From: Malikia spinosa
GTDB taxonomy: Bacteria > Pseudomonadota > Gammaproteobacteria > Burkholderiales > Burkholderiaceae_C
Direction: 5' to 3'
DNA: 50,560 nt
NCBI RefSeq assembly: GCF_002980625.1
Contig: NZ_PVLR01000028.1
Location: forward strand, 1 to 50,560
Within the stretch, counting starts at the first letter, position 1. Each line of letters starts with the position of its first letter. Below are positions 1 through 16,506 of the stretch, piece by piece. Position numbers and translations under genes: made by a program. The notes beneath the pieces were generated by a model. That model ran no database searches and was not told where the DNA came from. It saw only the letters and a program-made list of their open reading frames with translations.

Positions 1-261
1 ACGGCGGCCACCGTGGCGGGCCTGACGAGTGCGCAGGTGGCGGCATTGACGACGGCGCAGGTGCGGGCGCTGGAGTCGCAGGACTTCGAAGCACTCACGA
101 CAGCGCAGCTGCGTGCATTCACTGTCGCTCAAATCACGGCTATAACCACCGCTCAGGTTGACACCCTATTGACGTCAGACATTGCCGTTTTCACTATGGA
201 GCAGGCAAATGCCTTTAGCGTCGAGGCTTACCGTTCGATGGACTCTGCTCAGATCAGCGCA
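1..261 (+). repeat. 24-bp/octapeptide tandem repeats in the exoprotein gene
   Basis: Ten consecutive octads run from about 22 to 261, for example LTSAQVAA, LTTAQVRA, LTTAQLRA, FTVAQITA and ITTAQVDT. The phase also fits the residues before base 22, so the array continues past the left edge. Copies keep a hydrophobic first position, Thr/Ser at position 2, Gln at position 5, an aliphatic at position 6 and Ala at position 8. The later copies (LLTSDIAV, FTMEQANA, FSVEAYRS) are degenerate, as is common at the end of a repeat array. Confidence 0.85.
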
Positions 262-1080
262 CTGGCTGCCCTGTCCCCGATCATCCTGGACCTCAATGGC
301 GACGGTGTCTCCACGCTGTCGGTCGCTCAGGGCGTGAGCTTCGACCTGGCTGCGACCGGAGCGGTGCGCCAGACCGGCTGGGTGGCGCCGACCGATGGTC
401 TGCTGGTGCGCGATCTGAACCAGGATGGCGTCATCAACGACGGTCGCGAGCTGTTCGGCTCGGCGACCCAGGTCGATGGTCGGGCGGCAGGTGATGGTTT
501 CAACGCGCTGCGGGCGCTTGACAGTGACGCGGACGGCCGCCTGACGGCAGCCGACGCGGCGTTCACCGAACTGGCGATCTGGAAGGATGCCGACCAGGAC
601 GGCATGACCGATGCCGGCGAACTGTCGAGCCTGAGCGATAACGGCGTCGTGGCACTGAACCTGTCGGCACAGTCCTCTACGGCCATGGACAACGGCAACC
701 TGCTGGGGCTGGTGTCGTCGTATGAATCGGCTGACGGCGGCACGCACGACATGGTCGACGTCTGGTTCCGCCAGGGCGACCCGGATGCGCTGCGTAACTC
801 GGTGACTGAGCTGACCCAGTCGCTGGGCAGCTATCTGGAAACGGATGCCGTTGAGTCGGGCGCCACGGCTTCGCTGTCACCGGCAACCCTGGCTAACCAG
901 GCCAGCCCGGCCTTGGCTATGGCGGTTCAGCTGGAGTCCTACTACAGCCTGCAAGCCGCTACGGGTACCAACCCGGTGGCTCAGGGCGCCAGCACGGTCA
1001 ACAGCCTGCTGTCGGGGGGTGTGAACAATCCTTCAGCCACTGCGCTGCTGGCTGCCAGCGATGGCACCAAGGCCAAGTAA
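1..1080 (+). CDS. C-terminal part of a large octapeptide-repeat, calcium-motif protein, probably type I secreted (5' end outside window)
   Basis: The frame is open through the left edge, so only the C-terminal 359 or so residues are seen. The first 87 residues are octads of the form L-T-x-x-Q-[VIL]-x-A. Then comes a block with several Asp/Asn-Gly calcium-type loops: DLNGDGVST (near 288), DLNQDGVIND (near 411), DSDADGRLTAAD (near 520) and DADQDGMTDAGE (near 590). The segments TGWVAPTDGLLVRD and GRELFG are typical of the end of large RTX-type and adhesin-type exoproteins. The last 100 residues are Ser/Thr/Ala-rich without cysteines, fitting an uncleaved C-terminal type I secretion signal. A type I ABC exporter and HlyD-like adaptor lie 6-10 kb downstream. 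The exact function (adhesin, surface layer, sheath or fibre protein) cannot be told from this fragment. Confidence 0.8.
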   Translation, partial: TAATVAGLTSAQVAALTTAQVRALESQDFEALTTAQLRAFTVAQITAITTAQVDTLLTSDIAVFTMEQANAFSVEAYRSMDSAQISALAALSPIILDLNGDGVSTLSVAQGVSFDLAATGAVRQTGWVAPTDGLLVRDLNQDGVINDGRELFGSATQVDGRAAGDGFNALRALDSDADGRLTAADAAFTELAIWKDADQDGMTDAGELSSLSDNGVVALNLSAQSSTAMDNGNLLGLVSSYESADGGTHDMVDVWFRQGDPDALRNSVTELTQSLGSYLETDAVESGATASLSPATLANQASPALAMAVQLESYYSLQAATGTNPVAQGASTVNSLLSGGVNNPSATALLAASDGTKAK

Positions 1081-1124
1081 ATTGGCCCCGGGTCTGCCGC
1101 CAGGCGGACCTGGTTGAAATTCTG

Positions 1125-1165
1125 CTCCAAGCCTGTCGTATGCTCACGGCACGCTTGGAGTTTTT
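1125..1165 (+). terminator. Intrinsic terminator after the exoprotein gene
   Basis: CTCCAAGC (1125-1132) pairs with GCTTGGAG (1153-1160). An inner GTCGT/ACGGC stem lies beyond a 2x2 internal loop, and TTTTT follows at 1161-1165. A weaker 8-bp hairpin (1091-1098 with 1103-1110) lies just before it without a T-tract. This separates transcription of the exoprotein from the sugar genes, or at least reduces read-through. Confidence 0.7.
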
Positions 1166-1198
1166 ATATCCGAGTCCGGTTTTTTTGAAAACTGCCTT

Positions 1199-2989
1199 AT
1201 GCGCGCCAAGCCCCCTGACGTCAGACATTTGTCCCTGCCCGACCTGATGAACCAGGCTGAGCAGTTGTCCCTGCAAGGACAGATGCTGGCAGCGATCGAG
1301 CTGTATCGCGCTTGGCTGGATCAGTGCAAACTGGATCCGATGCGCTTCGTCGCGCTGTTCAACTATGGCACCTTGCTCGGCGCTGCCAAGCAGTCGCAGG
1401 AGGCCGTAACGGCCTACCGTGAAGCTCTACAACTCAAACCGGGTTTGCTGCAAGCGCGCCTCAACCTGGGCCATCAACTGGAGCTCCTGGGGCAGCTCGA
1501 TGAGGCGCTGCTTCAGTGGCAGCAGGTGGTACGCGAACTCGATATCTCGCCCAAGCCCGATATCGCGCTTCAGTTGCATGCGCTCAACAATCTCGTGCGC
1601 GCGCTGGAGTTGGCCAGGCGCTATGACGAGGCCGAAGCCTACATGGTGCGCAGCCTGCAGGTCGAGCCCGACCAGTCGGCGGTGCTGCAGCATTACGTGC
1701 ATATCCGGCAAAAGCAGTGCAAGTGGCCGGTGTATCAGCCGATAGGCGATGTGACGATCAACCGCCAGTTGCTGTCCACCTCGGCGCTGGCGATGCTGGC
1801 GGCCTATGACGACCCGGCGCTGCAATTGCTGGCCGCGCGCCAGTTCGTGCATGAGAAGACGCAGGCGCCGGTGCCGCGCAAGCCGCGCCGCGTGCGCCAA
1901 GCTGGCGAGCGCATCCGCATCGGCTACCTGTCGGGCGACCTCTGCATGCACGCGGTCGGCCTGCTGACAGTCGAACTGTTCGAGCTGCACGACCGCAGCC
2001 GTTTCGAGGTGTTCGGCTTCTGCTGGTCGAATGATGACGGTTCACCGCTGCGCGAGCGCCTCATCAAGGCCTTCGACCACCATGTCCGCATCGGGCACCT
2101 GAGTGACGAACAGGCCGCCCAGGTGATCGAGGCCTGTGGCATCGACATCCTGGTTGATCTGCAGGGACTGACCTCGGGCGCGCGACCCAACATCCTGATG
2201 CAGCGCCCGGCCGGTGCGGTGCAGATCAGCTACCTGGGCCTGCCTGGCACTTCGGCGCTGCCGACGGTCGATTACATCGTGGCTGACGATTTCGTGTTCC
2301 CGCCCGAGCTCGAACCGTTCATGACCGAGAAGCCGCTGCGTCTGCCGCGCTGCTACCAGGTCAGCGACCGCCAACGCGATGTGGGTCCGCCGCTGACGCG
2401 CGCGAGCTGCGGTCTGCCGGAAGACAAGTTCGTCTTTGCCGCGTTCAACAACAACTACAAGATCACACCCGAGGTATTCGCGACCTGGATGCGCATCCTG
2501 ACCCAGGTGCCCGACAGCGTGCTGTGGCTGATGGCCGACAACCGCTGGTCGGAACAGAACCTGCGTGACCAGGCCAAGGTCCAAGGTATCGACCCGGCGC
2601 GACTGATCTTTGCCGGCCGCGCATTCCCGGCCGAATACATGGCGCGGCTGGCCTTGCCGGACCTGTTCCTCGACACCTTGCCTTACAACGCAGGCACCAC
2701 TGCCAACGACATCCTGTGGATGGGCACGCCAATCCTGACTTGCTCGGGGAAGACCTATATCTCGCGCATGTGCGGTAGCCTGTTGACGGCGGTGGGGCTG
2801 CCGGACCTGATCACCTTCAGCCTGGCGGAGTACGAGTGCAAGGCGGTGCAGTTGGGACGGAATCCGAAGCGGATAGCGAGTCACAAGCGGTACCTAGATG
2901 AACATCGCCGAGACAGTGAGTTGTTCGACATGCCGCAGTTGGTGCGCGAGCTGGAACATGCCTTGAGCGATGCCTTGCAGCGTCCATGA
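1199..2989 (+). CDS. SPINDLY/OGT-type (GT41) protein glycosyltransferase with N-terminal TPR region
   Basis: The 596-residue product has a helical TPR-like N-terminal third (residues about 10-170, with repeated A-x-x-x-Y and N-L-G-x-x-L patterns). It is followed by a two-lobed GT41 catalytic region. Seen motifs are the lobe-1 start RIGYLSGDL-x-x-H (near residue 240), [23 protein letters not shown], and the C-terminal signature [10 protein letters not shown] with [11 protein letters not shown] (near residue 490). The family transfers GlcNAc or other sugars from nucleotide donors to Ser/Thr or Asn of proteins in the cytoplasm. Its place between an exoprotein gene and deoxysugar genes suggests it modifies that exoprotein before export, but acceptor and donor are inferred. 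The ATG at 1199 has no clear ribosome-binding site, so the start is uncertain. Confidence 0.85.
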
Positions 2990-3002
2990 AGAAGGAGCGG
3001 AA

Positions 3003-3938
3003 TTGAGCGATTATTTCATCCACCCTCTGGCTGATGTCAGCTCGAAACTGATTGGTGCCGGCAGCAGGGTCTGGCAATATGTCGTGCTGCTGCCGGGGGC
3101 AGCGATAGGCAAGGAATGCAACATCTCCGCCCATTGCCTGATCGAGGGCGATGTGGTCATCGGCGACCGTGTGACCGTCAAGAGCGGTGTGCAGCTCTGG
3201 GATGGGTTGCGTGTCGGCAACGATGTCTTCATCGGACCCAATGCGTCGTTTGCCAACGACAGGTTTCCGCGCAGTCGTCGCAGGCCAGAGAAATGCCTCA
3301 TTACTACCATTCATGATGGCGCTTCGATCGGTGCGGGCGCAGTTATCCTACCCGGTCTGGAGATTGGCCGCAATGCCATGGTAGCTGCCGGGGCCGTGAT
3401 CACCCGTTCCGTACCGCCCAACGCCGTGGTTGAAGGTAATCCAGCCAAAATCGTCGGTTATGTGAATGCGACGCACGGAGAATATGCCAGTGAAGAACTG
3501 GCGAAGACTGTGGTGGGTTCATCCGTAACCCATGTCAAGGGTGTCATGCTGCACCATATGCCCCGTGTGCCTGACATTCGCGGAAGTCTGACGGTGGGCG
3601 AGTTTGATCGAAGCATTCCGTTTGCCGCTAAACGCTATTTCATGGTTTTCGATGTGCCCAGTGCGGAAACGCGCGGCGAACATGCGCACCGTGAATGCCA
3701 TCAATTTCTGATTTGTGTCCGAGGTAGTTGTGCCGTAGTGACCGATGATGGGACTAACCATCAGGAATTTCAGCTCGATAAGCCGGATTTAGGTCTTCAC
3801 CTGTCGCCTATGGTTTGGGGTATTCAATACAAGTATTCTGCAGATGCGGTTTTGCTTGTCTTTGCTTCGCACTATTACGATCGTGCCGACTATATAAGAA
3901 ATTATGTCGAATTTCTTGAGATGGTGAAGTCGAAATGA
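3003..3938 (+). CDS. FdtD/WxcM-type bifunctional sugar N-acyltransferase and dTDP-4-keto-6-deoxyhexose 3,4-ketoisomerase
   Basis: Residues 1-170 form a left-handed beta-helix acyltransferase with hexapeptide repeats ([20 protein letters not shown]) and a terminal [13 protein letters not shown] segment. Residues about 180-311 form a WxcM/FdtA cupin with [11 protein letters not shown], the active-site RGEHAH pair and [11 protein letters not shown]. FdtD enzymes with this order are known to isomerise dTDP-4-keto-6-deoxyglucose and to N-acetylate the later 3-amino sugar, giving dTDP-3-acetamido-3,6-dideoxyhexose. I chose the TTG at 3003 because GAAGGAG sits 5 bases upstream at 2991-2997; an in-frame ATG at 2970 lies inside the GT41 gene and has no such site. 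The 3' end overlaps the next gene by ATGA. The genes for dTDP-glucose synthesis (rmlA/rmlB) are not in the window. Confidence 0.85.
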
Positions 3939-4504
3939 GTACTATTAAAATTCGCAAAGCTGATTTTATTAAGGGAAAATCGCTTGTGTTGCGTAATGTC
4001 GTTGTTGCTGATGCAGCATTTATACTGTCTTTGCGAACTGATCCGAAGAAGTCTAGGCATCTGTCTCAGGTCTCTGATGATCTAGGGGAGCAGGTGGCTT
4101 GGATCAGTAGTTATGAAAATCGTGACACCGAAGCATACTTCATTATTGAAGATTTTCACGGAGTTCCTCTAGGTACTGTGAGGATGTACGATGCTCGGGG
4201 CGAAAGTTTCTGCTGGGGAAGTTGGATTCTCCTGGAGGGTGTCGTATCTTCTGCGGCTATTGAGTCGGCATTGATGGTCTACGCCTATGCTCTCGAATCA
4301 CTAGGGTTTCGATGCGCTCACTTTCAAGTGAGAAAAGATAATGAGCGTGTTTGGAAGTTTCACGAACGATTTGGTGCTGAGCGCACTGCTGAAAACGAAG
4401 TGGAATACGAGTATAACTTATCGAATATGGCTATTGAAGTGTCCGTTAATCGATATCGGAGATACTTGCCTTATGGTGTCCATGTCGAGGAATTTTTGAA
4501 ATGA
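3935..4504 (+). CDS. GNAT-family N-acetyltransferase in the deoxysugar operon
   Basis: The 189-residue protein has a GNAT-like layout: an N-terminal strand region ([18 protein letters not shown]), a central [20 protein letters not shown] strand pair, and a C-terminal [19 protein letters not shown] segment like the acetyl-CoA-binding end of the fold. Start and stop each overlap a neighbour by 4 bases (ATGA), so it is translated with the FdtD-like and aminotransferase genes. The FdtD-like fusion already carries a 3-N-acyltransferase, so this enzyme may add another acyl group or act on a different sugar. Base composition is clearly more AT-rich than the core genes. The substrate is unknown. Confidence 0.75.
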
Positions 4505-5610
4505 TTCAATTTCTTGACTTGAAGGCTCCTTACCGGGAACTAAAACAAGAGTTTGACGAGGCCATTGCCCGCGTAGTGAGTTCGGGCTGGTTTATCGGCG
4601 GAGTGGAGGTGGAACAGTTTGAGGAGGCGTATGCAGCATATTGCGGTGCAGCCCAAGCGGTAGGCGTCGCCAATGGTCTGGATGCCTTGAACCTAGCCTT
4701 GCGGGCCATGGAGGTAGGACCGGGCGACGAGGTCATCGTTCCTTCCAACACCTATATCGCCACCTGGCTTGCGGTGAGTCAATGCGGTGCCATCCCGGTG
4801 CCGGTGGAGCCCGATGAGCGTACCTGCAACATCGATCCGGCCTTGATCGAGGCTGCCATTACCCCGCGCACCAAGGTCATCCTGCCCGTGCATCTGTACG
4901 GCCAGTCGGCTGATATGGATCCGATTCTGGCGGTTGCACGCAAGTACGGATTGCTTGTGCTGGAAGATGGTGCCCAGGCCCATGGCGCGCGCTACAAGGG
5001 CCGCAAGCTGGGAGCGCACGGCGATGCCGTCGCGTGGAGCTTTTACCCGGGCAAGAACCTGGGGGCGATGGGGGACGGTGGTGCTGTGACGACCAATGAC
5101 GAGCGGATCGCCGATCGTATCCGGGTGTTGCGCAACTACGGCTCCCGGGTGAAGTATGTCAACGAGGTCCAGGGCTACAACAGCCGTCTCGATCCGATCC
5201 AGGCCGCCATCTTGCGTGTCAAGCTCGCGCATCTGGATGACTGGAACGCCCGACGTGGCGCCATCGCGCGCTTGTACCAGGAAGGCTTGGCTGCGACAGG
5301 CCTGACTTTGCCGCATGTGCCCGAATGGGCCGATCCGGTGTGGCATCTGTATGTAGTCCGGCACCGCGAACGCGACGCCTTGCAGCATCTCCTGGCCCAG
5401 GCAGGCGTGGCTACGATGATCCACTATCCCATCCCTCCGCATCTGCAGTCGGCATATGCCCCCCTAGGGTTCAGCCGGGGTAGTTTCCCGGTTTCTGAAG
5501 CCCTGCACGATCATGTGCTCAGTCTTCCGATGGGGCCGGCCCAGACCGCTGAGGCTACCGGGATCGTGATTGATGCCGTTTACTCAGCCTTCACTGCTAT
5601 GGCTATCTGA
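4501..5610 (+). CDS. DegT/DnrJ/EryC1-family PLP sugar aminotransferase (FdtB/QdtB-like)
   Basis: The 369-residue product has the features of sugar aminotransferases: [12 protein letters not shown] at the start, [19 protein letters not shown], the PLP-phosphate region around [23 protein letters not shown], and the internal-aldimine lysine in [15 protein letters not shown] (about K185). It most likely converts the 3-keto product of the FdtD-like ketoisomerase to the 3-amino sugar with glutamate as donor, completing Fuc3N- or Qui3N-type chemistry. Length is normal for the family. The start overlaps the GNAT gene by ATGA. Whether the sugar is galacto or gluco configured cannot be decided from this gene. 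Confidence 0.88.
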
Positions 5611-5682
5611 TGAATAAGTGTTTCGTTGGTGAATTTTGCAGATGAGCCTCGATGTTTTTTGATGTTTTGAGTGGAATTTATT

Positions 5683-6945
5683 ATGTTTGTTGAATTAAAA
5701 GATACTCAATTATATATTGATGAATTAATAAATAATAAACAATATAATGACGCCTTAGCAAATATCGTTATTGGAGTGCATAATAGCTTTAATAGTGAAG
5801 AATTCAGGCATAAACATCTTTACTATCAAAAATTTGATAGTCAGATGATGGAGATGTCTAAAATTTTTCAGTCTTCTTGCCAGCGGAGTGCTCAAGCTAA
5901 TGTTTTGATTGTTGTGACTGAACTCTACCAAGTGGGAGGGCATTCCCGAGTTGTTGAGGATATAGTCGATGAAGTAGAGTCCGCGATTATTGTTCTTACT
6001 GATTTGTTTTGGTCTTATAAAAAAAATTTGAATCATTTAAATTGGATTTTAGATAGATTTAAAAACCATACAGTGATTGTTTTGCAGCAAACAACATTGT
6101 TGCTCAAGTGTCAAGAGTTGTTTAATTTGGTGAATCGACTCAAGCCAGGTAATATTATATATATGCAACACCATCAAGATCCTATACCATTTGTGGGGAC
6201 GCTTGGTTATTCAGCTTCTCGGAAGACGTTAATTCATCATTGTGATCATACGCCGAGCTTGGGAAACACGCTTGATGGGGTGGCTCATGTGGATTTCACA
6301 GATGAGTTAGCTCATATTTGTTCGGAAAAATTGCAGCGTGAGGCTTTGGTTTTTCCGCTTTATGTCTCAGATTCGGGTTTGAAAATTTTCCCTGAATTTG
6401 ATCAAATTAATTTTTCTGTGGTTACGTCTGGGACTGGTGTTAAGTTTGCGCGATACGGTGATTTATCTTTGGCGTCTATTGCTTTGAGGGTTTTGAATTT
6501 TATAGAAGGTAATTTTTTTCATATTGGCCCTATTGACCCGCAGTGGTTGAGTGATATAAGATGCTATCTGGCTGAAAATAATGTCAATCCAGATAGATTT
6601 TTTTCATTGGGGGCTGTCGAGTCACTGTGGAGTACGATACTAAACCTTGATGCACATTTTTATATTGGATCGGCTCCGGTGGGGGGTATTCGGGCTGCTG
6701 TAGAGGCTCAAGGCTGCGGTTATCCGGTTTTATACTTTAAAGATGAAGCAAATCCGGAAATTATGAGGGTTGATTCAATGTATGCAAGCGAAGAGTTGGG
6801 GTGGGCTACTGTAGATGAATTAATTGAAGTAATTTCTGATGCAAGACATCATCATCGTGATTTGAGTGTCAGGTCAAGAAAATTTTACCAATCAAAATTC
6901 TCTATCGGTAAATTCAGGGAGGCGCTTAATTGTATTATTCGGTAA
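5683..6945 (+). CDS. AT-rich GT-B-type glycosyltransferase-like protein
   Basis: The product is 420 residues from the ATG at 5683, which has a purine stretch (GAGTGGA) 7 bases upstream; an in-frame GTG at 5671 is possible. The first 75 residues are helical and unassigned. A Rossmann-like start ANVLIVVTELYQVGGHSRVV resembles the nucleotide-sugar glycosyltransferase pattern GGHxRVV. Near the C-terminus, AAVEAQGCGYPVLYF looks like the E-x7-E-type donor site region of GT4-like enzymes. It probably transfers a sugar, perhaps the amino-deoxyhexose made by the three genes upstream. The gene is far more AT-rich than its surroundings, with frequent ATT, AAT and TTT codons, a sign of recent acquisition. 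Donor and acceptor are not known. Confidence 0.65.
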   Translation: MFVELKDTQLYIDELINNKQYNDALANIVIGVHNSFNSEEFRHKHLYYQKFDSQMMEMSKIFQSSCQRSAQANVLIVVTELYQVGGHSRVVEDIVDEVESAIIVLTDLFWSYKKNLNHLNWILDRFKNHTVIVLQQTTLLLKCQELFNLVNRLKPGNIIYMQHHQDPIPFVGTLGYSASRKTLIHHCDHTPSLGNTLDGVAHVDFTDELAHICSEKLQREALVFPLYVSDSGLKIFPEFDQINFSVVTSGTGVKFARYGDLSLASIALRVLNFIEGNFFHIGPIDPQWLSDIRCYLAENNVNPDRFFSLGAVESLWSTILNLDAHFYIGSAPVGGIRAAVEAQGCGYPVLYFKDEANPEIMRVDSMYASEELGWATVDELIEVISDARHHHRDLSVRSRKFYQSKFSIGKFREALNCIIR

Positions 6946-6968
6946 CCATCTTCAATGGTTGTGGACCG

Positions 6969-6996
6969 ATATTTTCTTTATTCTAGAAAATATTTT
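6969..6996. terminator. AT-rich inverted repeat between convergent genes
   Basis: ATATTTTCT (6969-6977) and AGAAAATAT (6985-6993) form a 9-bp stem with a 7-base loop, followed by TTT. A smaller hairpin AACCAT/ATGGTT (6944-6960) overlaps the end of the glycosyltransferase gene. Placed between convergent genes, it could end transcription from either side. Confidence 0.4.
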
Positions 6997-7005
6997 GACA
7001 AAAGT

Positions 7006-7827
7006 CTATTTGAATGATGTAAATCGATTTCTGATATCGATGAGGGCTGTTAGATATTCTGGGAAACTTTGTTCGCGCAGTGCAATTTTCAATGCGTCGC
7101 TGATATAGGCATCTATCGGGTGTTCCCGTAATCTGCTCATCGACCAACCCATCGTGAATGGATTCGCTGCCTTTGTGCGCCACTGGGGTTTTATGGTTAG
7201 CAGAAGCGAGGCGGCGCGCTCCATCAGGAAGACCTTGCGTTGTGCTGCTCCGGGGTAGGTCGTGGTCTGGGTCAGCGCATGCTTGAGCGGGTTGTCAGGT
7301 CCTTCGCAGGTGGCGAATAGCAACTCATTGATGGCTAGCCATTCGCGCCAGAAGGCTGGTCGCGCCACGAAGTAGTTGGAGAATACTATTTGCCGGCTGT
7401 CCATGATCAGAGAGCGTAAATCGAGTTGAAGACCGATTTGCTTGAGCAGCGTCTCGTAACTCTCGATCAAGCCCGGATCGAAAACTTCTCCCTGCTCGAA
7501 CACGTTGAGGAAGAAGGCTCCCATGTCCGGCTGGGGCGAGAACAGGTAGACATCTGTTGCATCGGCATGTGAGCGAATGAAGTCAGTCACCTGCTGGTAG
7601 GCGAGCTGGGTCTTGTTGCCGAACTTAGTTGAGAAGAAGCCGTAGAAGGTGCTCTCGTTCAGCGTCTGGCTTTGCAGGAATCGGCGTATCGGCCAATACT
7701 CATACCAGTCAGACCTCTCGTTCCCCAGGTTGTCGAGCACGAGGTAGCCCGGTTCGATTTCATTGAGGGTCTGTTTCGAGTAGGCGATCTGGTAGAGCTG
7801 GATGGGTGGGAAGTCTGAGGCGGTCAT
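7006..7827 (-). CDS. Conserved-looking protein of unknown function, last gene of the type I secretion operon
   Basis: The 273-residue product (ATG at 7827) has no motif I can assign to a family. It is soluble-looking, rich in aromatic residues (SDWYEYWPIRRFL, FYGFFSTKFG, SNYFVARPAFWREWL), with no signal peptide and no membrane segment. The NYFVARPAFW segment recalls acceptor-side regions of some glycan-synthesis proteins, but this is a weak impression. An in-frame GTG at 7872 would overlap the stop of the HlyD-like gene by GTGA, suggesting translational coupling; it would add 15 residues. Its place behind the exporter genes and opposite glycosyltransferase genes suggests a role in modifying or handling the exported protein. 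Confidence 0.7.
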   Translation of the reverse strand: MTASDFPPIQLYQIAYSKQTLNEIEPGYLVLDNLGNERSDWYEYWPIRRFLQSQTLNESTFYGFFSTKFGNKTQLAYQQVTDFIRSHADATDVYLFSPQPDMGAFFLNVFEQGEVFDPGLIESYETLLKQIGLQLDLRSLIMDSRQIVFSNYFVARPAFWREWLAINELLFATCEGPDNPLKHALTQTTTYPGAAQRKVFLMERAASLLLTIKPQWRTKAANPFTMGWSMSRLREHPIDAYISDALKIALREQSFPEYLTALIDIRNRFTSFK

Positions 7828-7868
7828 GTTCGTGACAAGGTCTGTAAAGCTCGCTGGCAGTGACTGAC

Positions 7869-9227
7869 TCACGGCTCCCTCGCCGCCTCGCTCAGCCCCC
7901 GCATGATCGGGTACATCACATAGGACATGACCGTGCGCTTGCCGACCACGATCTCGGCGCTCAGCGTCATGCCGGGGATCAGCGGGGCGTTGCGCGGCAG
8001 GTTGCGCAGTTCGTTCTGCTCCAGCCTGGCGCGGCCCAGGTAGTAGGGGGTGCCTGACTTGCCGGCCTGCTGGGTGAAGGCGTCGCGCCCGAGCTTTTCC
8101 AGCTTGCCCTTGATCAGGCCATGTTTCTGGAACGGGAAGGCGTCGATCTTGAGGCGCACCGGGTCGTCGAGCTTGACGTAGCCGACATCCTGGGCCTCGA
8201 TCTGGACCTCGGCTTCCAGGGTTTCGCCCAGCGGTACCAGCGTGACCAGCGGTTCGGCTTCGCGGATGATGGAGCCGGTCGAGCGTGCCGCGATCTCGAG
8301 CACCACGGCATCGCTCGGGGCAATCAGTTCGATCAGGCGGCTGCGGCGCTCGGCCTTCTTGACCTGTTCGGCCACGCTGTCGCGCTCGCGCCGCACGGCC
8401 ACCAGTTCCTCGGTTGATTTCTGGCGCCACTCGCGGCTGAAGCTGGCTTTCTCGGCCTCGGCCTCGGCCAGCTGGCGCTTGAGTTCGACGCTGCGATTGC
8501 GCGCGTTGATCAGTTCGCGCTCGACCTCCTGGCGCCGCTCGCGGCTTTCGAGCAGCTTCATGTTTGACTGGAACTGCTGCTGCGTCAGCTTCTCGTTCAT
8601 GCGCTCGATGTCGAGCAGCGACTTGACGCGTCCCTCCAGGCTCTGGATGTCCTGGCTGTTGGTCACGATGGCAGCCTTGTTGCGCCCGATGCTTTCATCG
8701 AGGCGCAGCAGCCTGGCCTGGTAGCTGGCGCGGCGTTCGCCTTGCAGTTGCGCCTGCAGCTGCTCGTCCCGGTTCCGGCCTTGCGACGTGGTGGTCTTGC
8801 CGGCCAGTTCCTGCTCGACGCGTTGCACCTCGGCGTCCAGGCTTTTCAGCCGGTCCTGGGCCTGGGTCAGGTCGGCGGTGATGAAGGTCGGGTCGAGCAC
8901 GGCCAGTACCTGGCCTTTCCTGACGATCTGGCCGGCCTGGACCTTGAGCTCGCTGATCTGCGCGGTTTCGAGCGGCTGCAGCACGATGTTGGGCTGGGCC
9001 GTGACCAGCTTGCCGCGCGCGGTCACGACCTGGTCGACCTCGAACCAGCTGGCCCAGACCAGGGTGGCGACGACCAGCCCGACCAGCAGGTAGAGGGTGG
9101 CCGACAGGCCGCCCGGCAGCGGCTTGCGTTCGAGCGCGTCCGCATCGGGCAGAAACTCGGTGCGCCAGCTGCTGGTCTTGCCACGCGACTCGACGGGTTT
9201 CACAGATGGCTGGTTTGCTGGTTCCAT
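7869..9227 (-). CDS. HlyD/LapC-type membrane fusion protein of a type I secretion system
   Basis: The 452-residue protein has a short cytoplasmic N-terminus, one membrane segment (about residues 43-62, LYLLVGLVVATLVWASWF), and a lipoyl-like half (VVTARGKLV, ISELKVQAGQIVRKGQVLAVLDP). A long coiled-coil follows (about 110-290, rich in Glu, Arg, Gln and Leu). The C-terminal beta domain (EAEVQIEAQDVGYVKLDDPVRLKIDAFP) is typical of the family. It bridges the inner-membrane ABC exporter to an outer-membrane TolC-like channel. The start overlaps the ABC gene by 28 bases, so the two are surely co-translated. No TolC-like outer-membrane gene is in the window. Confidence 0.92.
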   Translation of the reverse strand: MEPANQPSVKPVESRGKTSSWRTEFLPDADALERKPLPGGLSATLYLLVGLVVATLVWASWFEVDQVVTARGKLVTAQPNIVLQPLETAQISELKVQAGQIVRKGQVLAVLDPTFITADLTQAQDRLKSLDAEVQRVEQELAGKTTTSQGRNRDEQLQAQLQGERRASYQARLLRLDESIGRNKAAIVTNSQDIQSLEGRVKSLLDIERMNEKLTQQQFQSNMKLLESRERRQEVERELINARNRSVELKRQLAEAEAEKASFSREWRQKSTEELVAVRRERDSVAEQVKKAERRSRLIELIAPSDAVVLEIAARSTGSIIREAEPLVTLVPLGETLEAEVQIEAQDVGYVKLDDPVRLKIDAFPFQKHGLIKGKLEKLGRDAFTQQAGKSGTPYYLGRARLEQNELRNLPRNAPLIPGMTLSAEIVVGKRTVMSYVMYPIMRGLSEAAREP

Positions 9228-11341
9228 AGGTCGGTGTAGGGCTCGCAGCGGCCCAGCAGGGCGCTGTGGGGGCCGGCATCATCCAGATGACCGCGCTCGA
9301 AGACGAAGATCTGGTCGGCATGGACCAGGGTGGACAGGCGGTGGCTGACGATGATCACCGTGCGGCCGGCCGCAATGCGACCGAGGTTGCGGATGAAGAT
9401 GGCCTCGCTCTCGGGGTCGAGCGCGCTGGAGGCTTCGTCGAGGATCAGGATGCGCGGCGAGGGCAGCAGCGCGCGTGCGATCGCCAGTCGCTGGCGCTGG
9501 CCGCCCGACAGGTTGCCGGCGTTCTCTTCCAGCAGGGTGTCGTAGCCCTGCGGCAGGCGCTCGATGAACTCGTCGGCACCGGCGGCCTGGGCGGCGGCCA
9601 CGATCTGCTCGAAGCTGGCGTCGGGGCGCGCCATCGCGATGTTCTCGCGCACGCTGCCGCGGAACATGAAGTTGTCCTGCAGCACCACGCCGATGCTGCG
9701 GCGCAGGTGGGCCAGGTCGATTTCGCGGATGTCGACGCCGTCGAAGCGCACCACGCCTTCCTGCACCGGATAGAGGCCCTGGATCAGGCGGGTGAAGGTG
9801 GTCTTGCCCGAGCCGCTGCGTCCGACCACGCCGACCACGGTGCCGGGCGCGATGTTCAGGTTGATGCGGTCGAGCGCGGTCGTGCTGGCGCCGGGGTAGC
9901 GGAAGGTGACGCCGTCGAGCGCGATCTGGCCCTTGAAGGCCGGGCGCAGGCCGCCCGAGGACCTGCGCTCGGGCGGGTGGTTCATGACCTCGCCGAGCAT
10001 CCTGACCGACAGCGCGGTTTCCTGGTACTGGTGCACCAGGCCGACGATCTGCACCAGCGGGCCGACCACCCGGTTCGACATCATCTGGAATGCGATCAGC
10101 GCGCCGACGGTCAGCTCCAGGCTGAAGACGTCGAGTGCGCCGATGGCGATCACGCTGACCATCATGAGCTTTTCCAGCAACTGGGTCACGGTGCTGGCGG
10201 CGATCGACATGCGGCCGACGCCGAAATGCATCTGGATGCTGGTGGCCGAGTACTGGTCCCAGAGCTTGCGCTGCTTGGGCTCGATCGCCAGCGACTTGAC
10301 GGTGCGCATGCCGTGGATGGTCTCGACCAGCATCGACTGGCGCGTGCCCTCGGCGTTGTAGAGCGCCTGCAGCCGGGTGTTGAAGGGCTTGATCAGCAGC
10401 ACCACGATCAGCGCCATCAGCGCCGAGAAACCGAACACCACGGCCGCGAGCTTGCCGCTGTAGGACACCAGCAGCGGGATGAACAGGATCAGGCCGATGG
10501 CGTCGAGCGCGGTGAAGAACAGCTGCCCGGTCAGGAAGCCCCGGATCGATTGCACCTGCTGCATGTGGCGCACGATGACGCCGGCGGTGTGGCTCTCGAA
10601 ATACTCGATTGGCAGCGACAGCAGCTTGCCGAAGGTGCGTCGCGCCAGCCGGATGTCGATCACGTTGGTCGCATGCAGCAGTAGGGTCTGGCGCATGAAG
10701 CCGAAGCCGGCCTCGAACAGCAGCAAGCCGACGATGGCCACCGTCAGCACGGTCAGGGTCGAGTAGCTCTCGTGCACCAGCACCTTGTCGATGATCAGCT
10801 GCGAGAAGATCGGCATGCCCATGCCGAGCAGCTGCAGCATGATGGCGGTGATCGCGATATCGCGGAAGGCCTTGCGCTGGCGCAGGATCTCGGGGATGAA
10901 CCAGCGCAGTCCGAACGGCTGGTTCTCGTCGAGCAGCTTGTGCTGACGCTTGAGCAGCACCAGCGTGCCGGACCAGCTGGACAGGAAATCGGCCTGCTCG
11001 ACCAGACCGATCTGGCCGCTGCCGGCCAGCGGATCGAGCACGGCCAGCTTCGGGCCCTTGTCGCCTGGCTGCACGCCGGCGACGATGACCGAGCTGCCGT
11101 CACGCCGACGCGCCAGCAGCGGAAAGATGTCCTTGAGCTCGACCAGTTCGTTCCAGCTGGAGTCGACCCGCTGTGCCTTGAAGCCCAGATCGGTGGCCAT
11201 GCGCAGCAGCAGCCGGTCGTCGGGTTCGCTGGCGTCGAGCGCGTATTCATGCACCAGCCGCTCGGGCAGGGCCTGGATGCCGTGGTGCTGGGCAATCGCG
11301 GTCAGGCATTGGAGGGTGGAGTGGCGGTGAGCGGGGTTCAT
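9200..11341 (-). CDS. Type I secretion ABC exporter with inactive C39-like domain (LapB/HlyB-type)
   Basis: The 713-residue protein has three parts. An N-terminal C39-like domain (about 1-130) has Ser8 near the place of the catalytic cysteine, as judged from the QHH segment, so it should bind rather than cut the substrate. A six-helix exporter transmembrane domain (about 160-440) follows. The ATPase has Walker A GRSGSGKTT (near 510), signature LSGGQRQRLAIARALL (near 614), Walker B ILILDEASSALD and switch region IIVSHRLS. It exports unfolded C-terminally signalled proteins across both membranes with the HlyD-like partner. The natural substrate candidate is the repeat exoprotein at the left edge. 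The ATG at 11341 opens the minus-strand operon, divergent from metH. Confidence 0.93.
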   Translation of the reverse strand: MNPAHRHSTLQCLTAIAQHHGIQALPERLVHEYALDASEPDDRLLLRMATDLGFKAQRVDSSWNELVELKDIFPLLARRRDGSSVIVAGVQPGDKGPKLAVLDPLAGSGQIGLVEQADFLSSWSGTLVLLKRQHKLLDENQPFGLRWFIPEILRQRKAFRDIAITAIMLQLLGMGMPIFSQLIIDKVLVHESYSTLTVLTVAIVGLLLFEAGFGFMRQTLLLHATNVIDIRLARRTFGKLLSLPIEYFESHTAGVIVRHMQQVQSIRGFLTGQLFFTALDAIGLILFIPLLVSYSGKLAAVVFGFSALMALIVVLLIKPFNTRLQALYNAEGTRQSMLVETIHGMRTVKSLAIEPKQRKLWDQYSATSIQMHFGVGRMSIAASTVTQLLEKLMMVSVIAIGALDVFSLELTVGALIAFQMMSNRVVGPLVQIVGLVHQYQETALSVRMLGEVMNHPPERRSSGGLRPAFKGQIALDGVTFRYPGASTTALDRINLNIAPGTVVGVVGRSGSGKTTFTRLIQGLYPVQEGVVRFDGVDIREIDLAHLRRSIGVVLQDNFMFRGSVRENIAMARPDASFEQIVAAAQAAGADEFIERLPQGYDTLLEENAGNLSGGQRQRLAIARALLPSPRILILDEASSALDPESEAIFIRNLGRIAAGRTVIIVSHRLSTLVHADQIFVFERGHLDDAGPHSALLGRCEPYTDLWNQQTSHL

Positions 11342-11578: not shown

Positions 11579-14341
<2,763 letters not shown>

Positions 14342-14411: not shown

Positions 14412-16506
<2,095 letters not shown>

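Follow-up and report, generated by a model that had tools for sequence, protein, structure and literature searches.

Positions 1-11341 of a contig of Malikia spinosa (NZ_PVLR01000028.1, assembly GCF_002980625.1; contig C25 of genome G000 in our numbering) carry nine open reading frames (ORFs) that would together constitute a dedicated locus for the cytoplasmic glycosylation and export of an octapeptide-repeat protein, here termed REP; we put the probability of this reading at roughly 0.7. The entire contig, 50,560 nucleotides in length, is referred to as the window, and its start falls inside the repeat array of REP. The coupling of REP to a protein glycosyltransferase of family GT41 and to a type I exporter is strongly supported, and the case is built on gene identities, co-occurrence, operon linkage and conserved residues at sites that we take to be catalytic. 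ORF calling and scans with Pfam and NCBIfam return the genes at the positions and in the order given by an earlier annotation of this DNA (the sequence-only reading): repeat protein, GT41 enzyme, FdtD-, GNAT- and FdtB-like set, a further ORF, and then exporter, adaptor and an uncharacterised protein.

Co-occurrence across genomes

Among 299 genomes of the same family, the ALTTAQ repeat family PF20080 is matched in 84 and the GT41 family PF13844 in 188, with both present in 79 (Fisher p 4e-14, ignoring relatedness). GT41 enzymes of the window type, defined by at least 49% identity (a threshold chosen once the gap down to 44% had become apparent), occur in 58 of the 299, representing 28 genera, and every one of these 58 genomes also matches PF20080 (58/58; p 8e-42, again ignoring relatedness). 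Moreover, the C-terminus of REP is found in at least 57 of the 58 among the matches listed, counting the stronger rows, with E to about 2e-38. When genomes were instead found via the GT41 alone, by contig search, PF20080 was over its cut-off in 18/18 named genomes, which include Malikia granosa (L008) and members of the Methylococcaceae, Thiotrichales and Gammaproteobacteria; the 58- and 18-genome sets overlap. A class-wide sample of 177 genomes, with that of M. spinosa included, gave PF20080 in four and PF13844 in 40; three of the four also match PF13844, and G350, the fourth, matches it once and weakly. Outside the family, then, the system is rare in this sample. Both families were also matched in the Caulobacter vibrioides control genome.

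Gene linkage and phylogeny

Linkage was assessed from several directions. Of the 18 loci retrieved with the GT41 as sole query, and therefore blind to REP, 10 show REP, 11 show the ATP-binding cassette (ABC) component of the exporter, and 16 show at least one of them; the two loci with neither sit on contigs of 3.6 and 6.5 kb. Where a window-type GT41 and a REP C-terminus share a contig (39 contigs among the matches listed), the closest pair is no more than 32 kb apart in 35 and no more than 80 kb apart in 38, the remaining pair being separated by 436 kb; 32 of these pairs are convergent, six co-directional and one divergent. We also fetched 27 loci, most of which were picked for a nearby REP, such that their REP-linkage counts are partly a matter of choice, and seven of which exclude the GT41 itself. 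Exporter ABC and HlyD are present in 25 and REP in 22 (some stretches end before it). By comparison, the exporter pair was found in 0/20 GT41 loci from ALTTAQ-negative genomes, a control set hand-picked from the better GT41 matches, one per genome and from a subset of the eligible genomes, with REP absent by design. Together with the 58/58 and 18/18 genomes, the 25 of 27 loci bear out the joint occurrence of repeat protein, GT41 and exporter by which the sequence-only reading had proposed to be checked.

The commonest order in the fetched loci is GT41-ABC-HlyD, and in all 16 window-type loci with both in view the GT41 and an LssB-like ABC gene are 0-130 bases apart on the same strand (the LssB label deriving from one scanned example, L019, over cut-off). 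Two loci (L079 and L080) are instead arranged REP-HlyB-HlyD-GT41, and the exporter of the window and of L007-L010 is HlyB-like rather than LssB-like. That the exporter changes while the GT41-REP pair stays argues for a functional tie between the latter two.

A quick tree of 68 GT41 sequences (two fragments left out, no bootstrap and some long branches) places the window enzyme in a clade of 37 (SH-aLRT 99), with REP or exporter in view in 34 of the other rows. A second clade of nine (SH-aLRT 100) contains eight REP-linked rows, which had been chosen for REP, and has the exporter ABC in view in 4/9; the 22 control-locus rows fall outside both clades.

The repeat protein

The window holds the C-terminal 359 residues of REP (1-1080, plus strand), comprising the 3' part of the ALTTAQ octapeptide array (1-273), an FrpC-type calcium-binding module (277-765) and a C-terminal tail that is the putative place of a type I secretion signal (766-1080). 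The array matches PF20080 (E 1.1e-13; 51 bits against a curated cut-off of 26.4), and this was the sole match in the part scanned, where no glycine/aspartate-rich RTX nonapeptides were found. The module is homologous to the self-processing module of FrpC (6sjw, E 9.4e-32), and Foldseek with a model of a REP homologue likewise retrieves this calcium-binding fold (6sjx, E 2.5e-6). D414 of FrpC is required for the clip-and-link reaction (PMC7078468). In the window REP, the Asp of the self-cleaved Asp-Pro bond, which would precede an N-terminal Pro, is absent, and a Ser takes its place. Indeed, of 38 sites caught by pattern in the loci that this comparison covered, 36 have Ser or Thr (overlapping loci being possibly counted twice), and both Asp-bearing exceptions are proteins of one genome (G268) that have no octad array.

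The remainder of the array lies beyond the contig end. An ALTTAQ array also stands at the end of contig C58 of the same genome; its frame begins MSYITSLSTTQVAVL, downstream of a YchF-like ORF, and in a genome of the same genus (L115) the start of REP likewise follows a YchF-like ORF. This shared order makes it probable that the C58 array is the N-terminus of the window gene. For the upstream sequence that the sequence-only reading had recommended obtaining, there is a candidate array on C58 and a matching gene order in L115; no overlap of 12 bases or more was found between C58 and C25, and the join stays at probable. Inspected by eye, REP begins with octads or octad-like sequence in seven loci (L006, L010, L022 and L113-L116), and no signal peptide was seen at these N-termini.

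The regularity of the octads was examined as a possible guide to glycan attachment. Six window octads were caught by pattern, with Thr or Ser at position 2 in 5/6 and at position 3 in 5/6. Larger arrays tend to be more constant at position 3 than at position 2: among 11 GT41-linked arrays read in phase (the phase-shifted arrays of L067 and L073 being excluded from these ranges), the Ser/Thr fraction is 0.64-1.00 at position 3 and 0.50-0.78 at position 2, position 3 being the richer in 10/11. An AlphaFold2 model of the L007 homologue (L007:2-1435; m6d596e9e7fc8, seven sequences) has an overall mean pLDDT of 61.7 and pTM of 0.48 and is confident across residues 1-180 (block means 79-95); its array contains 26 short helices, with a spacing of exactly eight in 24/25. 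Each octad is thus predicted to form one short helix, in which position 2 is the N-cap and position 3 the first helical residue; the S/T-x-x-Q/D/E pattern presumably corresponds to a capping box. Since position 2 is a predicted N-cap, its regular Thr/Ser, which is also kept in GT41-less arrays, is no proof of glycan acceptors, and we rejected it as such. The GT41-less arrays have Ser/Thr fractions at positions 2 and 3 of 0.70 and 1.00 (G268, shifted phase) and 0.62 and 0.65 (G023), respectively; because that of G268 also keeps Ser/Thr at position 3, this position is no more than a candidate acceptor site.

After the FrpC module, the nearest solved fold in the L007 model is that of mesothelin, for the octad array (8cx3; Foldseek E 4e-3, TM 0.39 by target), a weak match. 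A search of a viral library with the same homologue returned two uncultured-phage proteins, at E ~3e-4.

The GT41 glycosyltransferase

The GT41 gene (1199-2989, plus strand) starts 118 bases after the end of REP and encodes a protein that matches both TPR families and PF13844 (E 1.5e-74, 251.6 bits); all of the GT41 matches of its own genome fall in this single gene. Its nearest solved relative is XcOGT (291 bits), followed by human OGT (259) and SPINDLY (156). The sequence-only reading had described a SPINDLY-like GT41 enzyme: the family assignment is upheld, whereas a closest kinship to the O-fucosyltransferase SPINDLY we rejected on these scores. Likewise rejected was an HMW1C-type N-glycosyltransferase system, as TPR families match, the PDB matches listed at E 0.001 include no HMW1C chain, and the exporter is HlyB/HlyD. 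Membership of GT41 is further marked by retention of H251 and K421, which we take to be the catalytic His and Lys and which are invariant in the alignment of 37/37 clade members.

Two other positions set the clade apart. Position 499 is Gly and position 480 Tyr in 37/37 members, whereas His is found in 19/22 and 20/22, respectively, of the rows outside both clades; the second REP-linked clade keeps His at both (9/9), and XcOGT has, in the alignment, the Tyr of position 480 but not the Gly of 499. If, as we assume, the corresponding human residues contact UDP, the changes suggest that the donor of the window clade may differ. To our knowledge, the substrates of bacterial OGT-type GT41 enzymes are mostly not known. 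XcOGT is reported to have shown no O-GlcNAc activity on bacterial lysates, and the same paper raises the possibility that UDP-GlcNAc is not its proper donor (PMC9715652).

The exporter

On the minus strand lie genes for an HlyD-type periplasmic adaptor (7869-9227; TIGR01843, 288 bits, above the cut-off of 208.65) and an HlyB-type exporter ATPase/permease (9200-11341). The latter scores 641 bits against TIGR01846, under the cut-off of 725.55, and 480 bits against the HlyB structure 7sgr. An ABC exporter and an HlyD-type adaptor are the parts expected of type I secretion, and that assignment holds. HlyB bears a C39-like domain, seemingly without its catalytic Cys: in the alignment with PCAT1, the first aligned pair is chain residue 27 of PCAT1 and query residue 11, such that Cys21, which we take to be the peptidase Cys of PCAT1, falls by count near His5 of HlyB, and leader cleavage is not expected. 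No TolC-type outer-membrane protein is encoded among the nine ORFs of the locus, the scope of that search; in four other loci (L050, L055, L067 and L071) the scanned ORF beside HlyD is, in every case, a TolC-type OEP protein.

Past the exporter, the window contains an ORF resembling metH by eye (11579-14341, plus strand) and one resembling a ComM/Mg-chelatase-like protein (14412-16019, minus strand); both names are our presumptive assignments.

The sugar genes and the remaining ORFs

Three plus-strand genes follow the GT41. The first (2970-3938) encodes an FdtD-like fusion of a hexapeptide acyltransferase with an FdtA-type 3,4-ketoisomerase (PF00132 and PF05523), the best solved relative of which is the 'WxcM-like protein' 4mzu (396 bits); the second (3935-4504) encodes a GNAT acyltransferase (PF13302, E 4.5e-10), and the third (4501-5610) an FdtB/QdtB-like sugar 3-aminotransferase (PF01041, E 1.9e-119), with 2oga, 7b0d and QdtB (3frk) as best chains. 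With RmlA and RmlB, each of which has two over-cut-off copies elsewhere in the genome, the set RmlA, RmlB, ketoisomerase, 3-aminotransferase and N-acyltransferase is complete by homology, and the product of the cassette is probably a dTDP-3-acylamino-3,6-dideoxyhexose.

Whether this sugar is destined for REP is a separate matter. The GT41 and exporter could serve REP with a single common sugar, and the FdtD/GNAT/FdtB genes and the ORF at 5671-6945 some other glycan, such as O-antigen or capsule. Indeed, GT41, REP and exporter persist across the fetched loci, in which an FdtB match is present in 12/27 and a match to the FdtD query in 13/27, so that the set is not the fixed part of the locus that the sequence-only reading had implied; moreover, rmlA and rmlB sit on other contigs. 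However, the start of the FdtD-like gene overlaps the end of the GT41 gene, each of the three sugar genes overlaps the one before it by a few bases, and three other loci (L007, L008 and L012) likewise have sugar genes directly after the GT41. On balance, we regard this alternative as unlikely, albeit the strongest of those considered, and prefer a cassette that contributes to the glycan of REP.

The ORF at 5671-6945 (plus strand) belongs to no recognized family: it has no Pfam, PHROG or PDB match, and its one NCBIfam match, to an SDR family, is weak (E 4.6e-4, far under cut-off). The label of second glycosyltransferase that it had been given is, therefore, unproven, and it is retained here as a possible one. 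A 959-residue homologue (295 bits), itself without a Pfam match, lies beside the GT41 and near flagellin-like ORFs in two ALTTAQ-negative genomes (L092:6057-8933 and L094:10652-13528).

The protein encoded at 7006-7872 (minus strand) has no assigned function; its model is poor (mean pLDDT 61) and gave no PDB fold match (best E 0.1). Relatives are found in L009-L011 and in 5/27 fetched loci. In one locus (L068:2834-4417) this family is fused to a methyltransferase domain, and since the fusion stands where other loci have GT2-methyltransferase fusions, it hints weakly that the protein is a glycosyltransferase.

Counter-evidence and possible other roles for the GT41

Several observations weigh against a dedicated glycosylation-and-export locus. 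Five of the 84 PF20080 genomes lack PF13844; three of these (G056, G083 and G099) have sub-cut-off matches, and the other two (G023 and G268) are real exceptions, with arrays and no GT41. In G268, which has no GT41 match anywhere in the genome, a Sel1-repeat protein, HlyD and HlyB sit beside REP, and in G396 the order is REP-HlyB-HlyD with GT41 matches on other contigs; these two arrangements imply that the REP-exporter pair can exist without the GT41. Conversely, no exporter is in view at L078, which is cut by a contig end, or at L081. To these may be added the variability of the sugar genes and the structural explanation, as helix N-caps, for the regular Thr/Ser of the octads. In addition, the presence of REP close by was the reason for picking most of the fetched loci, related genomes do not count as independent cases, and the glycosylation of REP is proposed here from gene content. 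The sequence-only reading held that repeat protein and exporter in many genomes devoid of the glycosylation genes would tell against it: for the GT41 no such pattern emerged, since it is present in 79/84 PF20080 genomes, with G023 and G268 as the real exceptions. Its proposal of cytoplasmic glycosylation before type I export is likewise upheld as regards the coupling (58/58 genomes, and the exporter in 25/27 loci versus 0/20 in the control), whereas the glycosylation itself remains a deduction. By eye, the REP-Sel1 protein-HlyD-HlyB group of G268 (L114:1-12000) lies beside ORFs resembling flagellin and flagellar cap genes.

The GT41 might instead act on a different protein of the surface or the cell, such as flagellin, and be placed here through the clustering of surface-structure genes. 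Flagellin-like ORFs are found near the GT41 in three control loci (L092, L094 and L104) and in 2/18 named loci (L022 and L024), and a TPR glycosyltransferase, FlmG, modifies flagellins (PMC7591256). A pattern search for flagellin-like ORFs found none in the loci that had been fetched because of a REP-linked GT41, and neither the GT41-ABC operon nor the 58/58 co-occurrence with ALTTAQ would be expected on this basis; hence, we consider it improbable. A role of the GT41 chiefly as a TPR chaperone, by which the repeat chain is maintained in an export-competent state and to which catalysis is secondary, is very improbable: the adjacency of GT41 and exporter ABC in most loci seen, and the Sel1-repeat protein beside REP and HlyD in GT41-less G268, would suit it, but H251 and K421 are invariant throughout the clade.

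A proposed mechanism

We infer that REP is the substrate of both the GT41 enzyme and the exporter; where the glycan is attached, which sugar is used, in which order the steps run and what REP does at the surface are proposed in the same spirit. REP would be made without an N-terminal signal peptide and bound in the cytoplasm by the TPR domain of the GT41, the catalytic domain of which would place the first sugar on Ser/Thr residues, with the octad array as the likeliest site. Sugars, here probably dTDP-3-acylamino-3,6-dideoxyhexose, would come from the variable cassette, together with transferases that extend or alter the glycan. HlyB and HlyD, with a TolC encoded elsewhere, would then export the modified chain; outside the cell, calcium would fold the FrpC-type module, and the helical solenoid may serve as a coat or an adhesive fibre.

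A bolder extension is possible, although we hold it as tentative and probably overstated: that the locus exemplifies a widespread, undescribed class of surface proteins, heavily O-glycosylated solenoids of tens to hundreds of octads with one short helix per octad. These would be modified in the cytoplasm at the often near-invariant Thr/Ser of position 3 by a GT41 clade whose changed donor site (Gly499 and Tyr480) takes a deoxysugar nucleotide in place of UDP-GlcNAc, and would then be exported by a type I system.

Relation to known systems and significance

Judged by analogy, the logic of cytoplasmic glycosylation followed by dedicated export is already known, and it is the parts that differ: an OGT-type GT41, a type I exporter and putatively helical octads. 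In Haemophilus, the GT41 enzyme HMW1C glycosylates the large adhesin HMW1 in the cytoplasm, before the dedicated exporter HMW1B acts (PMC3012730). The combination of GT41, large protein and dedicated exporter is the same, here as read from genes alone; however, HMW1C attaches N-linked hexoses to Asn, has no TPR domain and is paired with a two-partner exporter, in contrast to the TPR GT41 and type I exporter of M. spinosa. In Caulobacter, the TPR domain of FlmG binds flagellin, which is glycosylated in the cytoplasm before export (PMC7591256). A TPR glycosyltransferase and a cytoplasmic step preceding export, as proposed here, are thus shared, but the substrate is flagellin, the sugar pseudaminic acid and the route flagellar. 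The serine-rich repeat proteins are likewise adhesins of repetitive sequence that carry O-linked glycans on Ser/Thr and leave the cell through a dedicated accessory Sec system; they differ in coming from Gram-positive bacteria and in using that accessory Sec route, and we take their repeats to be unrelated to ALTTAQ octads. FrpC of Neisseria, also type I secreted, has a homologous calcium-binding module, but it combines this with RTX nonapeptides and a self-cleaving Asp, whereas REP has an octad array, a GT41 and Ser instead. Finally, MrpC of Microcystis, a cyanobacterium, is a surface protein named as a potential target of a SPINDLY-family enzyme (PMC2442094); compared here by description rather than by sequence, it may be a cousin of the REP system. 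A literature search covering open-licence PMC papers, and hence weak evidence of novelty, turned up neither ALTTAQ repeats nor the pairing of an OGT-type GT41 with a type I exporter in the titles and opening lines of abstracts; one set of hits looks, by title, like chance matches of letter strings.

Here a GT41 clade is paired, within one locus and across many genera, with a specific candidate substrate of highly repetitive sequence, which makes the donor, the acceptor and the purpose of the modification directly testable. If the proposal is correct, type I secretion would join the export routes for proteins glycosylated in the cytoplasm, and one would have to ask how a chain that bears glycans gets through the exporter.

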